A DNA stretch of 10,663 nt from Chloroflexota bacterium (GTDB lineage Bacteria; Chloroflexota; Anaerolineae; Anaerolineales; Villigracilaceae). Shown piece after piece: positions 3,022 to 10,663 of the stretch; positions within the stretch are counted from its first letter, which is position 1, and every line of letters begins with the position of its first letter. The DNA lies in assembly GCA_016191895.1 (NCBI GenBank), contig JACPVD010000003.1, positions 1-10,663 on the forward strand, given 5' to 3'. A program made the position numbers and the translations under genes. The notes under the pieces are model-generated. The model was not told where the DNA came from, ran no database searches, and worked only from the letters and a program-made list of their open reading frames with translations.

Positions 3022-4148
3022 GCCGCCCTCCGATGCTCGGTGTGATCGCGCTGCGCCTTGCGCTCGAAGGCCAACTCGATCAGGCGGTCGACGAGTTTGG
3101 GATAGGAGAGTCCGCTCGCCTGCCAGAGTTTCGGGTACATGCTGATCGAGGTAAAGCCTGGCAACGTGTTCAACTCATTCAAAAAGATTTTGTTCGTATC
3201 ACGTTCGACAAAGAAATCGGCCCGCGCCATACCCGCGCAATCGATGGCCTTGTAGGCGCGCGCGGCATATTCGCGGATTTTGTCGCTCACGTCCGCAGGC
3301 AGGTCGGAGGGGATGATCAGCCCGGATGTGCCGTCTTCGTATTTCGATTCGTACGAATAAAACTCGCGGCTGGGAATTACTTCTCCGCACACAGAGGTCT
3401 GCGGGGTTTCGTTGCCCAACACGCTTACTTCGATCTCACGCACCTGGCCCACGCCGCGTTCGACAACGATGCGGCGGTCGTAACGTGCGGCTTCCATCAG
3501 GCCTTCGCCGAGATCGGAGCGCGAGTTGCATTTGCTGATTCCCACCGACGAGCCGAGATTGGCGGGTTTCGCAAAGAATGGGTATGCGCCGATCTTTTCG
3601 ATCTTTGTAATGACCGCGTTCATATCTTTCTCAATGTCGCTTCGCAAAACAAGCATCGACTCTACGATCGGAATCCCGTTTGCGCGCATCACATCCTTGA
3701 AGATGGCCTTATCCATGCCGACTGCGGACCCCGCCACGCCTGCGCCCACATACGCGACATCGGCCAGTTCCAGCAGTCCCTGCATCGTGCCGTCTTCGCC
3801 GAAGGGACCGTGCAAGACGGGGAAGAATACGTCCACGCCGGCGAGGGTTTCCAGCTTGTCGCCGATCTTTGTCGAGCGGACGATATACAACGATTGACGC
3901 GAAGGCTCTGTGGGAGGAATCACACGGTCAAGGCCTTCCATGTTTCCATTTTCAAACGCGTCGAGCGTGTTCACGCCGGTCAGCCAGTTGCCATCCAGTG
4001 TGATTCCGATTTGGATCACCTCGTAGCGTTCCGGGTCGAGCGCGTTGAGCACGGAGCGCGCGGACATGAGTGAAACGTCATGTTCACCGGAACGACCGCC
4101 AAAAAGAACGGCGACGCGGAGTTTGCGGGGATGGGATGAAGTCGTCAT
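3018..4148 (-). CDS. ddl: D-alanine--D-alanine ligase (Ddl)
   Basis: Ddl joins two D-alanines with ATP in the cytoplasm, giving the dipeptide that MurF adds to the precursor. The 376-residue length suits the longer DdlA-type enzymes. The N-terminal motif GGRSGEHDVS (17-26) holds the Glu that binds the first D-Ala. HGPFGEDGT (113-121) and the ATP-grasp motif KPANLGSSVGIS (194-205) follow. The omega loop EFYSYESKY (262-270) keeps the Tyr of D-Ala-D-Ala enzymes, so D-lactate (Van-type) activity is not expected. The metal-binding region runs from RADFF (309-313) to ELNTLPGFT (325-333). A charged tail ends the protein. The start at 4148 gives the usual distance to the first motif, but the leader is pyrimidine-rich and shows no Shine-Dalgarno on the coding strand. 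Confidence 0.96.
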   Translation of the reverse strand: MTTSSHPRKLRVAVLFGGRSGEHDVSLMSARSVLNALDPERYEVIQIGITLDGNWLTGVNTLDAFENGNMEGLDRVIPPTEPSRQSLYIVRSTKIGDKLETLAGVDVFFPVLHGPFGEDGTMQGLLELADVAYVGAGVAGSAVGMDKAIFKDVMRANGIPIVESMLVLRSDIEKDMNAVITKIEKIGAYPFFAKPANLGSSVGISKCNSRSDLGEGLMEAARYDRRIVVERGVGQVREIEVSVLGNETPQTSVCGEVIPSREFYSYESKYEDGTSGLIIPSDLPADVSDKIREYAARAYKAIDCAGMARADFFVERDTNKIFLNELNTLPGFTSISMYPKLWQASGLSYPKLVDRLIELAFERKAQRDHTEHRRAA

Positions 4149-4185
4149 GATAAGTGGTAGGAGAGTAGATAGTAGAGAGTAGTGA
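4149..4185. repeat. Short tandem repeat in the murB-ddl spacer
   Basis: The plus strand carries GAGAGTAG at 4161-4168 and 4175-4182 with ATAGTA between, a 14-base period. The 37-base spacer has no other visible function. On the coding strand it is pyrimidine-rich (CTACTCTC words), so it offers no ribosome binding site to ddl. Low-complexity words of this kind may be another dispersed repeat (inference). Confidence 0.45.
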
Positions 4186-5109
4186 TTACCAGTCTCCTAC
4201 GAGTTCAACTTCCAATTCAAGTTCAACGCCGAATTTTTGTTTCACTGTATTGCGGGTTAAATCAATTAATTCACGGACATCGCTTGCGCGAGTCTCGCCG
4301 TGATTGATGAAAAAATTTCCATGCAGCGTGCTGATCTCAGCGTTGCCGATGCGCGTTCCCTTCAATCCCGCGGCTTCGATCAAACGGCCCGCATGATCGC
4401 CCACAGGATTCTTGAACATGGAACCCATGCTCGCACCGGGCGGCTGCGCGGCCTTTCGGCGTTCGCTGAATTGTTCGATTTTAACAGACACATCTTCCTT
4501 TGTTGAATTTTTTAATCTCAACACTGCCGAAAGCACAATCGCTTTCATTTCACCGCGTTTCAAGAGGCTTGTGCGATAGCCGTATCCCATTTGATCCACT
4601 GAAAATCTTTCGAGTCCGTTCACCGTCCACACATCGGCCCAGATCAGATTCTGCGCCATGTCGCCGCCGAATGCGCCGGCGTTGCCATACACCGCGCCGC
4701 CGATTGTTCCGGGGACGGTCGCCGCCCATTCCAATCCGCTCAAGCCTTTGGACGCGCAGCGATTCGCAAGGTTGCTGAAGATGACCCCCGCTTCGCACCA
4801 CACCGACGGCGGGTTGCCGGCTTCGAAACGAACGTCCTTCGCCCGGTTCAAGACCGCCACTCCGCGTATGCCTTTGTCGCTGATGAGCACATTCGATCCG
4901 CCTCCGAGCAAATAATAAGGCGACTCATGCTCCCAGAGTACCGTCATAACATCCATTAATTCATTCGCAGATTTGACCATCACTAAAATATCCGCCGGGC
5001 CGCCGATTCGCGCGGACGTATACGGCGCAAGGAGAACGTTCTCCTGCGCCGCTTCGCCGAAACGAAGGCGCAACTCATTAACAGGAATGGCGGACATGGT
5101 CATGTTCAT
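4186..5109 (-). CDS. murB: UDP-N-acetylenolpyruvoylglucosamine reductase (MurB, short type II)
   Basis: MurB reduces UDP-GlcNAc-enolpyruvate to UDP-MurNAc with FAD and NADPH in the cytoplasm. The 307-residue length fits the type II enzymes. The FAD domain shows TSARIGGPAD (31-40), LLGGGSNVLISD (67-78) and the AATVPGTIGGAVYGNAGAFGG region (129-149). YGYRTS (176-181) holds the conserved Arg179. GASMGSMFKNP (225-235) holds Ser230, the expected proton donor. The end, FGVELELEV (293-301), holds the expected catalytic Glu at about 300. The ATG at 5109 lies four bases after the stop of the small unknown gene, which suggests coupled translation. ATGs at 5103 and 5097 are also possible, and the Shine-Dalgarno is weak for all three. 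Confidence 0.96.
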   Translation of the reverse strand: MNMTMSAIPVNELRLRFGEAAQENVLLAPYTSARIGGPADILVMVKSANELMDVMTVLWEHESPYYLLGGGSNVLISDKGIRGVAVLNRAKDVRFEAGNPPSVWCEAGVIFSNLANRCASKGLSGLEWAATVPGTIGGAVYGNAGAFGGDMAQNLIWADVWTVNGLERFSVDQMGYGYRTSLLKRGEMKAIVLSAVLRLKNSTKEDVSVKIEQFSERRKAAQPPGASMGSMFKNPVGDHAGRLIEAAGLKGTRIGNAEISTLHGNFFINHGETRASDVRELIDLTRNTVKQKFGVELELEVELVGDW

Positions 5110-6753: not shown

Positions 6754-6768
6754 GTGTTCATTCCGTCC

Positions 6769-6830
6769 TGAACGAAGTCGAAGGACTTTCCGCGCATAAT
6801 GCGCTTCGACTGTGCTCAGCGCGAAGTCCT
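6769..6830. repeat. Imperfect inverted repeat in the cvpA-like/murC gap
   Basis: TGAACGAAGTCGAAG (6769-6783) pairs with CTTCGACTGTGCTCA (6804-6818) at 12 of 15 positions. AGGACTT (6782-6788) also pairs with AAGTCCT (6824-6830), and the tip holds GCGCAT-A-ATGCGC (6792-6804). Alternative folds are therefore possible. The element fills the gap and touches the stop codon of the CvpA-like gene at 6829-6831. The GAACGAAGTCGAAGGA word resembles repeats I remember from gaps in Anaerolineae genomes, which needs a search to confirm. No clear U tract follows. Confidence 0.65.
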
Positions 6831-8456: not shown

Positions 8457-9612
8457 TATACGACCTCCATTCTTCATCTGAAATCGTGCCTTCGCCAGTC
8501 TGTCGCGAAATATTGAACAGAATGCCGATTGCCGCAAGCGTGGCGACAAGGTTCGATCCGCCCGCGCTGACAAAGGGCAATGCGTTCCCGGCAAACGGGA
8601 GCAGGCCAACCAGTACAGCCATGTTGATCAACGCTTCCGCGCCCACCCAAATGACGAGGCCGGAAGCGAGAAGCGTGCCAAGCATATCCGGCGCGCGCCG
8701 CGCAATGACCATGCCGCGCCACACAAAAAAGCCATACAAGCCGATCAACGCAACCGCGCCGACCCATCCCAATTCTTCTACGACAACGGCAAAGACGCTG
8801 TCGGTGGGCGGCACGGGCAGGCCGGTGAGTTTGCCTTCCGATTGACCCAGCCCCATGCCGAACCATCCGCCGTTGATGATGGCTTCATATGAACGCTGCA
8901 TATGATACGAAGATTGAAGAGGGTCTTTAAGCCCGGCCAAAAAATCGCCGACGCGTTGTTGCCCGGTTGCGCTGACGGAGATCACAAGCCACGCCACAAC
9001 AGCCGCGATCATAAGCAGGAAAACGATCTGTTTCATGTCGCCGCCGGCGAGGAAGAACAGCAAACCGCCGAGCAATAATACGGTCGCCGCGGCGCTCAAA
9101 TCGGGTTGCTGATAGATCAGGCCGCCCACCGCTCCGAGAATCACGCCGAGGGGAATCAACCCGAACGAAATGTCATGCAGAAATTGTCGCTTCGAATACA
9201 GCCACACGCCAAGATACAGGATCGATACCAATTTCGCCAGTTCGGAGGGTTGCACCGAGCCGCCAAGAATGGCGCGTTTCGCGCCGAAGCGAATCTCGTT
9301 CATCAGCAAAACGACGATGAGCAAACCGATGGTAAACGCCATGGCCGGCAAAACGAACTTGCGCCAGTGATGGTAATCGAAAAATGCGAGTATGACCGCA
9401 ACCAGCAACCCAACCCCAAGCCACATCATCTGGCGGTCGAACATATAGGTCGCGTCTTGATACGCGGCAAGCGAAAAATCCCATGAAGCCGAATACAACA
9501 TGACCAGGCCGAACACGATCAACGCCACCACGCCCACAAGCAGGGGCATGTCGAATCCGCGAATGATGCGCGGCGCGTACGGCCGCTCGGTTACGAAAGT
9601 TCCAGTACCCAT
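8377..9612 (-). CDS. ftsW: Septal peptidoglycan polymerase FtsW (SEDS family)
   Basis: FtsW polymerises lipid II into glycan strands at the septum together with the transpeptidase FtsI. It is a polytopic membrane protein of 411 residues with about ten hydrophobic segments. SEDS motifs in order are QPSELAKL (121-128), QQPDLSAA (168-175), PPTDSVFAVVVEELG (268-282) with the likely catalytic Asp271, and the family signature NMAVLVGLLPFAGNALPFVSAGGSN (330-354, quoted here as NMAVLVGLLP then ALPFVSAGGSN). The C-terminus is a basic cytoplasmic tail, RWWNGRRGVSRASRLRSAKR. The start at 9612 overlaps the end of murD by 22 bases, with GGAG about 13 bases upstream. RodA is the alternative, but the dcw position and signature favour FtsW. 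Confidence 0.94.
   Translation of the reverse strand: MGTGTFVTERPYAPRIIRGFDMPLLVGVVALIVFGLVMLYSASWDFSLAAYQDATYMFDRQMMWLGVGLLVAVILAFFDYHHWRKFVLPAMAFTIGLLIVVLLMNEIRFGAKRAILGGSVQPSELAKLVSILYLGVWLYSKRQFLHDISFGLIPLGVILGAVGGLIYQQPDLSAAATVLLLGGLLFFLAGGDMKQIVFLLMIAAVVAWLVISVSATGQQRVGDFLAGLKDPLQSSYHMQRSYEAIINGGWFGMGLGQSEGKLTGLPVPPTDSVFAVVVEELGWVGAVALIGLYGFFVWRGMVIARRAPDMLGTLLASGLVIWVGAEALINMAVLVGLLPFAGNALPFVSAGGSNLVATLAAIGILFNISRQTGEGTISDEEWRSYSAVVNLRWWNGRRGVSRASRLRSAKR
8463..8468 (-). promoter_or_regulatory. Ribosome binding site that selects the murG GTG start
   Basis: The minus strand reads GGAGGT, then CGTATA, then GTG at 8456. The match and seven-base spacing (from GGAGG) are near ideal and favour the GTG over the in-frame ATG at 8477. 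The site lies inside the ftsW coding sequence. Confidence 0.75.
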
Positions 9613-10663
9613 TTTCGAAACGCTTCTCCTCTCTCCTCAAAATCCTTGAACTCATCGAAACTTGTGCCGCCCGGCGAAAACAGGACGACGTCTCCATCGC
9701 GGGCGGTTTCCGCGGCGACGGCCACCGCATCTTTAAGAGTCTTTGCGCGGCGAATGTCCACGCTTCGCTCCCCACCGACGGCGGATACGGCTTTCTGAAT
9801 CAGTTCCGCTGCCTCGCCAAAGAGCACCAGATGATCGACGCGCTTGTGAATCAGCCGGGCGATCTCATCCCAGGGCAGGTCCTTGTCGCGCCCGCCGAGC
9901 ATCAACACAATCGGCTCATCGAACGCATAAATGTCGGCCATGCTTCGTTCCGGGGCGGTTGCGATCGAGTCGTTGTACCAGCGGACGCCATGCAACTCGC
10001 GCACAAGTTCAAGTCTGTGCGGTACGCCGCGAAATTCTTCCACCGCTTCGAGCATGTCATCCAGTTTGAAACCGGCGGCGTGCCCGATGGCAAAGGCCGC
10101 AAGGACGTTCGACACGTTATGATTTCCGCGCAGTTGAATCTTCTCACGCAGAAGCAGCGGCAGGTAGGCGTATCCGTCGCGCAAACTTAACAACCCATCA
10201 TGCAGGTATGCGCCGTTGAGTCCTTCTTCGAGGTCGTTCAAACTAAAGGTCAGCAATTTGCCTTTGACTTTGCTTCGCAAATCCCATGCACCTTTGTCGT
10301 CACAGCCGAGGATGACGGTATCTTTTTCGGTTTGGAACTCCAATATGCGCGCCTTGGCATTTGTGTACGCTTCCATCGTGCCATGGCGATCAAGATGATT
10401 CGGCGTGACGTTGAGTACCGCTGCGATATTCGGGGAGATGGTCATCTGCTCCAGTTGAAAGGATGAGATTTCCAAAATGGCGAGGTCTTCGGGTTTCATA
10501 TCGTCCACATAATTGATGAGCGGATCGCCGATGTTGCCGCCGATGAAAACCTTGTTTGAAGGTTGAAGGTTATCAGGTTGCAAGTTACCTTCAACTTGCA
10601 ACTTGTAACTTGCAACTGCCATCCTACCCACCAGCGTCGTGGTGGTCGTCTTGCCGGCCGAGC
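9591..10663 (-). CDS. murD: UDP-N-acetylmuramoyl-L-alanine--D-glutamate ligase (MurD), 5' end beyond window
   Basis: MurD adds D-glutamate to UDP-MurNAc-L-Ala with ATP in the cytoplasm. The visible 356 residues start inside the P-loop (SAGKTTTTTLVGRM) and lack the N-terminal UDP-binding domain, which lies to the right of the window. GGNIGDPLI, ILEISSFQLEQM and NVTPNHLDRHGTM follow as in the central domain. LRGNHNVSNVLAA, GVPHRLELV, RWYNDSIAT, LMLGGRDKDLPW and LFSPGGTSFDEFKDFEERG mark the C-terminal domain. All expected motifs are present. The oddity is about 16 extra residues between GRM and the GGNIG motif, encoded by repeat-rich DNA at 10556-10616. From the P-loop to the stop the protein is about 30 residues longer than E. 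coli MurD. The stop overlaps ftsW. Confidence 0.96.
   Translation of the reverse strand, partial: SAGKTTTTTLVGRMAVASYKLQVEGNLQPDNLQPSNKVFIGGNIGDPLINYVDDMKPEDLAILEISSFQLEQMTISPNIAAVLNVTPNHLDRHGTMEAYTNAKARILEFQTEKDTVILGCDDKGAWDLRSKVKGKLLTFSLNDLEEGLNGAYLHDGLLSLRDGYAYLPLLLREKIQLRGNHNVSNVLAAFAIGHAAGFKLDDMLEAVEEFRGVPHRLELVRELHGVRWYNDSIATAPERSMADIYAFDEPIVLMLGGRDKDLPWDEIARLIHKRVDHLVLFGEAAELIQKAVSAVGGERSVDIRRAKTLKDAVAVAAETARDGDVVLFSPGGTSFDEFKDFEERGEAFRKWVLELS
10556..10616. repeat. Repeat-rich insert inside murD
   Basis: The word AACTTGCAAC occurs at 10593-10602 and 10607-10616 (14-base period), and inverted as GTTGCAAGTT at 10577-10586. The inverted and first direct copies form a perfect ten-base stem around a six-base loop. 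TTGAAGG is tandemly repeated at 10556-10562 and 10563-10569, with an inverted copy CCTTCAA at 10588-10594. All of this is read in frame within murD and encodes the extra peptide ASYKLQVEGN followed by LQPDNLQPSN. The composition and repeat structure are unlike the neighbouring murD sequence. Confidence 0.85.

Follow-up and report, generated by a model that had tools for sequence, protein, structure and literature searches.

How does an essential enzyme come to carry, in the loop next to its ATP site, a peptide that looks like translated repeat DNA? The window analyzed here, a stretch of 10,663 nucleotides, is the whole of one contig from a 2.1-Mb, 67%-complete genome bin (367 contigs), and its minus strand carries a division and cell-wall cluster of ftsZ, ftsA, an FtsQ-like gene, ddl, murB, murC, a gene for a small membrane protein, murG, ftsW and murD, with names taken from the open reading frames and a family check for murD only. 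A profile search matched the murD product to PF08245 (7.6e-26) and PF02875 (2.3e-13), and the best fold matches of the model of the fragment were MurD structures and chains. Between the GRM that follows the P-loop and the GGNIG motif, this MurD has a linker of 26 residues, AVASYKLQVEGNLQPDNLQPSNKVFI. Same-genus relatives without the insert have 11 (e.g. AKLMYGKRAFV), which leaves 15 extra. The earlier note had recognized the long linker but counted 25 residues with about 16 extra, and its limits for the insert, 10556..10619, agree within a few bases with the array as placed in Table 1.

Table 1. Positions in the window of murD, its motifs and the heptamer array of the insert
Feature	Position	Strand	Remarks
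murD	9591..10661	-	356 codons and stop, starting just ahead of the P-loop; N-terminal domain outside the contig
murD stop codon	9591-9593	-	
P-loop region SAGKTTTTT	10635..10661	-	read from translation and alignment
GGNIG motif	10527..10541	-	just past the insert; alignment
Palindromic 7-base array	10554..10617	-	in frame; encodes most of AVASYKLQVEGNLQPDNLQPSNKV
5' arm (coding sense), AAGTTNN units	10587..10617	-	GTTGC AAGTTAC AAGTTGC AAGTTGA AGGT; by eye, limits approximate
3' arm (coding sense), AACYTNN units	10554..10586	-	AACTTGC AACCTGAT AACCTTC AACCTTC AAAC; by eye, limits approximate
Low-confidence loop, residues 22-34 of the fragment	10560..10598	-	between helix 6-24 and strand 38-41; predicted structure

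On the plus strand, AACTTGCAAC occurs at 10593 and 10607 and its inverse, GTTGCAAGTT, at 10577, and TTGAAGG occurs at 10556 and 10563 with its inverse, CCTTCAA, at 10588, so that the three copies of each word previously counted, one of each inverted, are all present. One more CCTTCAA lies in the window at 4359, outside murD. The best period-7 score within murD, 14.0 for the segment 10592-10617, was reached by none of 2000 codon shuffles, whose maximum was 10.5, and inverted 8-mer matches within a 66-base stretch numbered 18 compared to a mean of 0.5 and a highest value of 11 in 2000 shuffles. The lag-7 identity of the linker was 0.58, a value equaled in 0 of 500 shuffles. A repeat-like insert in the MurD frame, as first proposed, is thus real and beyond chance in these shuffles, and a single degenerate array of 7-base units with inverted arms describes its DNA better than a set of separate 10-bp words does. 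The predicted structure of the fragment (mean pLDDT 81.5) bears out the suggestion that the insert sits in a loop, which it places between the post-P-loop helix and the strand ahead of GGNIG, with pLDDT below 50 at residues 22-34. A position in a low-confidence predicted loop fits tolerance, and the insert peptide is most likely tolerated, not used.

An assembly or binning artefact at the contig end might be suspected from an insert lying about 46 bases from that end in a genome of this completeness and contig number. However, the nearest proteins, P0001 (87% identical) and P0002 (85%), belong to other assemblies; their linkers are AVASYKFQVEGNLQPDNLQPSNNV and AVASYKLQVEGNLQPNNLQPSNNV. Among the 120 listed homologues of 1332, the linker pattern was readable in 117 and not in 3, and 12 more of the 117 readable linkers start AVAS or VVAS, eight of which end NLQHSNNV and are five residues (15 bases) shorter. 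Since proteins of other assemblies and sources have almost this peptide in an open, unbroken frame, and relatives have equivalent inserts deep within long contigs, an artefact is very unlikely, to the point where we give it next to no credence. The occurrence of almost this peptide in the MurDs of other assemblies also indicates that the insert has been inherited and is old enough to have diverged. One near homologue, P0055 (80% identical), belongs to Candidatus Villigracilis affinis, whose genus falls in the Anaerolineales, Chloroflexota, and to which we take the source to be related.

To place the insert among its relatives, we kept 80 MurD loci from named genome records, out of 189 confirmed, that are 59-81% identical to the query and carry Chloroflexi, Anaerolineae or kindred titles save a few other-named bins (one Nitrosomonas); from same-genus genomes, 29 loci were fetched besides the window's own. 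The 81 distinct, pattern-readable linker DNAs comprised 24 of short form and a longer remainder. A set of 106 loci was made up of the window, the 80 named loci, five further same-genus loci added for their new linkers and 20 loci from other families of the order. Here, 44 linkers were 7-periodic at p 0.01 or better (the window, 39 of the 80 named loci, none of the five further same-genus loci and four of the 20 from other families, L179, L181, L183 and L189, each with a heptamer array at the MurD loop), and 34 of the 106 had 11 residues or fewer. The words in the loop differ, including GTCCA, CATCC, GAATGC/CATTC, AATCG, AACYT and others, and the second arm is often the inverse of the first. 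Mean hairpin z was -2.00 in the 44 periodic linkers as opposed to -0.03 in the short linkers.

On a tree built without the insert, in which linkers of 14 residues or fewer were treated as short (45 loci) and the rest as longer (61 loci), the fewest changes needed were 28 between short and longer linkers and 48 between word labels, counts that are rough because 37 of the 102 inner branches of this quickly made tree are open and there is no shuffled-label baseline; the word labels were set partly by hand. One clade of four (support 98) mixes L084 (AACYT), L092 (short), L094 (GCAGAAN array) and L103 (GTCCA). The pair L059 (GTCCA array) and L061 (short), supported at 95, differs in array presence, and L075 and L082 (97) differ in linker length, the long linker of L075 being not significantly periodic (p 0.21). 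A single capture in one lineage is ruled out by the different words, the other families and the repeated changes on the tree. The earlier reading of a dispersed repeat captured in frame is therefore partly supported, being right in kind and too small in scope: the repeat is dispersed and does stand in the MurD frame, but it is not a single captured element in one gene, as the same site has been filled repeatedly across the order by different 7-base words, and places in other enzymes likewise. Relatives lacking the insert with a clean boundary were another expectation, which held insofar as some close relatives are short-linkered and failed at the boundary, where flanks diverge and arrays replace some short-linker residues. 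Nine linker pairs read by eye gave no clear MITE-type target duplication, but their flanks diverge.

The MurD loop also holds other sequence, given that 7-periodicity is lacking in 11 of the 61 longer linkers. In L074 (about 3045-3150) it contains a non-heptamer repeat, SFPHPNPLPQGEGTPFSCGRRAGDEG, and so accepts other repeat families too. Two genera of another family (L180 and L182) have in common a long non-repetitive linker with SYS and LPRRWR ahead of VWVGGNIG, perhaps a decayed or selected insert. L115 has an extra VLSLSKG piece inside its MurD-loop array; by likeness, this may be the translation of a relative of a repeat that lies in the window at 6762-6830, in the gap beside murC, with TCCTGAACGAAGTCGAAGGACTT and CTTCGACTGTGCTCAGCGCGAAGTCC.

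Recurrent filling raises the question of whether the MurD loop is selected for a role, for instance in binding a partner or, as an mRNA or DNA hairpin, in tuning murD expression, with the repeats as raw material. A length of 24 (without the two residues before GGNIG) in 35 of the 117 linkers of listed near homologues, many of which follow a single GTCCA-type pattern with STVHRPRS or similar at the end, is consistent with such a role, as is the mean hairpin z of the periodic linkers. We nevertheless consider it very improbable, given the plain short form of 24 of the 81 distinct linkers, the wide variation of the inserts in sequence and length, the low model confidence of the loop and the presence of similar arrays in many unrelated proteins.

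Such arrays are spread well beyond murD. The source genome itself gave 11 additional BLAST matches, some mutually overlapping, and 51 partly overlapping matches to the pattern AACYTNNAACYTNNAACYT compared to 6 for a reversed control pattern, which confirms the further copies that the earlier note had proposed to look for; thus neither a non-repetitive insert common to the relatives nor a genome empty of other copies was found. When tandem arrays of period 4-13 were collected from the 80 loci (about 7 kb each), 62 of 93 had period 7. Placed by their distance from the P-loop and not by annotation (both arrays of L058 by eye), these 62 divide into 15 immediately upstream of murD, 35 within the murD loop, five close to the ftsW end and seven further downstream close to the murG end. 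Because the five near the ftsW end are in open frames with limits set by distance, the murD loop is the only recurrent place in that stretch that is clearly intragenic. Genome samples, several stretches of which were picked for a repeat match or for murD, had period 7 in 28 of 30 arrays.

We then fetched 52 array places, all located by word, from three genomes. Among the 16 GTCCR places of G016, 14 had a frame of 80 codons or more running across them and 12 lay in family-matched genes, namely those for GlyS, a Chlor_Arch_YYY protein, aconitase, a NuoE-NuoF fusion, RecJ, AroA, PriA, CcmB, a FemX-like protein, an ADP-forming acyl-CoA ligase, LeuRS and PrmA. The array was inside the matched stretch in eight of these 12, at the junction of two matches in NuoE-NuoF and the ligase, and N-terminal of the match, outside it, in CcmB and the FemX-like protein. 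Further array-bearing genes were AroE (G016) and CarA (G019). In G018, four of 27 AACYT places were in family-matched genes (MutS2, an M20 dipeptidase and an ABC transporter twice). Nine spanned frames (L212, L213, L217, L218, L221, L230, L233, L234 and L237) stood outside the family test. The difference in family-matched share between the two words (12/16 and 4/27, p 0.0002) confounds word with genome, and the proposal that stop-free words are more often coding was dropped on this ground.

Counting weak and paralogous hits, 37 of the 41 genomes gave a match to AroA and 40 a match to RecJ. Arrays were observed in 23 of 30 fetched AroA loci, near alignment columns 274, 375, 470 and 550, and in 19 of 30 fetched RecJ loci, near columns 348 and 744, with words that vary from species to species in both enzymes. 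Stops within two AroA matches (L259 and L273) were considered as array stops and rejected, as the reading frames reach the normal C-terminal end. Two inverted arms are established for MurD, and some arrays in other genes are not two-armed.

A dispersed palindrome in many genes invites comparison with REP sequences, which are short dispersed palindromes with RAYT transposases and are not known to have a 7-base period. The arrays could accordingly be a mobile palindromic element of REP/RAYT or MITE-like type that is moved by a transposase in trans and prefers this site and other loops. They are short, dispersed and often form hairpins, and 40 of the 41 genomes of the genus, among them the source genome, have Y1 transposase genes (PF01797). 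Their 7-base period would set them apart from REPs. Against such an element, no period-7 array (score 12 or more) lay beside any of 12 fetched Y1 loci within up to 1.5 kb on each side, and no constant element sequence was seen, the words varying between sites. Moreover, one genome without a Y1 match (G013, 85% complete) still has 0, 1, 2 and 10 array matches for the four words. A RAYT link is unsupported by the 12 loci, and the mobile-element reading as a whole appears rather improbable.

The words form a limited vocabulary. The 144 arrays use 73 of 1172 heptamer classes, compared to 134 +- 3 expected. Common descent at the same site explains part of this shared-word excess, and only a shuffled-label test controls for descent. 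With genome labels shuffled within sites, the similarity between different sites of the same genome was 0.0995 compared to 0.048 (p 0.004; GC-matched, p 0.0036), and with different genes only it was 0.123 compared to 0.058 (p 0.0125). Three close pairs differ in length by 21 bases, or three units (L063/L071, L054/L113 and L046/L076), 21 bases being the smallest step that preserves both the register of the array and the reading frame; length differences are not always multiples of 21, as in the eight near kin of the window that are 15 bases shorter.

Purely local slippage, by which each loop would grow its own 7-base array out of the sequence it happens to contain, without exchange between sites, is suggested by the tandem and degenerate make-up of the arrays and by the 21-base steps. 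Earlier work cited in PMC4679880 likewise proposed polymerase slippage and found that, in most genomes, heptanucleotides outnumber the other classes of such repeats. Yet the limited vocabulary and the same-genome likeness between different genes speak against it, and inverted arms require more than slippage; we regard it as unlikely, though the strongest of the rivals. No donor-recipient pair or recent jump was seen among the arrays compared, so that it is similarity that argues for copying between sites.

Genome abundance gave a mixed picture across the 29 genomes with a read murD linker. CATTC in murD tracks a high genome-wide CATTC count (ranks 1, 2 and 3; p 0.002), neither GTCCR (p 0.29) nor TTCAT (p 0.58) has such a link, and AACYT is the murD word in one genome only (rank 4, p 0.10); a word-by-word match between murD and genome abundance thus holds for CATTC only. 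Total copies of the four words were not clearly higher in genomes with longer murD linkers (p 0.10; 29 genomes). As for the filter of coding, 11 of 81 coding arrays would contain a stop if all their units were consensus, and the actual stops number 0, as is also required of any intact gene. Stop-bearing words make up 2 of 20 in the murD loop as opposed to 7 of 18 elsewhere in the cluster, which is a trend only (p 0.058).

Taken together, we think it probable that the MurD insert is a copy of genome-wide palindromic heptamer arrays that slippage resizes, whose words are exchanged within the genome and which are retained where frame and fold allow. The family consists of tandem 7-base units, often in two inverted arms and with several words per genome, and its arrays are found both outside genes and in frame within core enzymes. 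Replication slippage may lengthen and shorten such arrays, fold-back copying could turn them into hairpins or inverted arms, and ectopic template switching or gene conversion may let the arrays of one genome seed or overwrite each other. Which arrays survive would then depend on reading frame, stop codons and protein fold. A bolder idea, which we hold to be improbable, is that gaps and tolerant loops are filled with 7-base arrays by an activity dedicated to this in the genus, possibly a polymerase that works from a template, which would draw on a small word set specific to each genome. Essential-enzyme loops would then be rewritten repeatedly across the proteome, and the heptamers of cyanobacteria and other phyla may be due to the same activity.

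In some arrays, five bases of each unit are constant and two are free, as in AATCTNN, AAATCNN and ACTGANN (L082:6786-6859, L075:6842-6931, L091:2600-2661 and L176 near 16037). Across 39 arrays, mismatches concentrate in some unit positions (best two adjacent, 0.65 compared to 0.55 for random sites, p 0.002). A rule of five fixed plus two free bases was discarded for these 39 arrays, since adjacency is not special (0.65 compared to 0.63 expected, p 0.46).

Heptanucleotide repeats are familiar from cyanobacteria, where they are named STRRs, and Vioque reportedly described them in 1997 in the RNase P RNA gene. By description, STRRs resemble the present arrays in their tandem 7-base units, several words and many copies per genome; unlike them, the arrays here also occupy essential-protein loops at recurrent sites and are absent from the RNase P RNA of the loci examined. 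No heptamer array was found inside RNase P RNA in 30 fetched loci, one of which (L311) has an array elsewhere in its stretch, and RNase P RNA as a parallel sink was given up accordingly. Full-length RNase P RNA matches in the genus span 365 to 500 bases (L339 being G000:C14:1899-2388). Calothrix heptamers are mentioned in PMC4692102.

The TAACTGA repeats of Beggiatoaceae are 7-base direct repeats found genome-wide and also in distant phyla; in PMC4679880 they are described as mostly intergenic, almost all direct and of one word, with near-variants rare. By that description the arrays reported here differ from them in being many-worded, in having inverted arms and in being often coding. In a survey of satellites in prokaryotes (PMC6749651), those in coding sequence are associated mainly with amino-acid repeats whose periods are multiples of three, a property that the 7-base arrays do not have.

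The closest parallel in behavior is that of the Rickettsia palindromic elements (RPEs; Ogata et al. 2000, 2002, as reviewed in PMC10969869). This review describes ten families of about 150 bp with a conserved encoded peptide, which are dispersed palindromes that lie in gaps as well as within the frames of unrelated metabolic genes and were judged compatible with protein function. Here too a palindromic repeat stands in frame in unrelated genes (MurD, AroA, RecJ, LeuRS, GlyS, aconitase, PrmA, PriA, AroE, CarA and MutS2). Nevertheless, there is no sequence family of about 150 bp, the window's array being about 64 bp with words that vary by site and species; no conserved peptide is encoded, as the linker peptides compared by eye have none in common across words; the same MurD loop is refilled in many species; and the host is a member of the Chloroflexota, not Rickettsia. 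The arrays are thus like RPEs in behavior but not members of that group, and the likeness that the earlier note had drawn stands for behavior and not for sequence. No description of such arrays in this lineage was found in the full-text open-licence literature.

Over a bacterial order, one essential enzyme offers many natural refillings of a single ATP-site-adjacent loop, and other core enzymes are alike elsewhere. This looks like a recurrent route from dispersed repeats to protein, and an unusual one. Repeats in proteins are usually regarded as rare accidents or as belonging to phase-variable surface genes. The refilled loops form a natural experiment series that can tell which loops accept repeat-derived sequence, how repeats turn from non-coding to coding and how a 7-base repeat spreads in a genome. 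For annotators, repeat-derived loops can mislead homology, motif and indel-based taxonomy.

The window holds two more repeats in its intergenic gaps. In the ddl-murB gap, positions 4161-4188 form a second period-7 stretch, GAGAGTAGATAGTAGAGAGTAGTGATTA, with a score of 11. In the ftsZ-ftsA gap, reading by eye revealed an imperfect hairpin at 695-760, GGAGTGCAGACTTTAGTCTGCA ... GCGGACTGAAGTCCGCACTCC, which is of a different repeat type.
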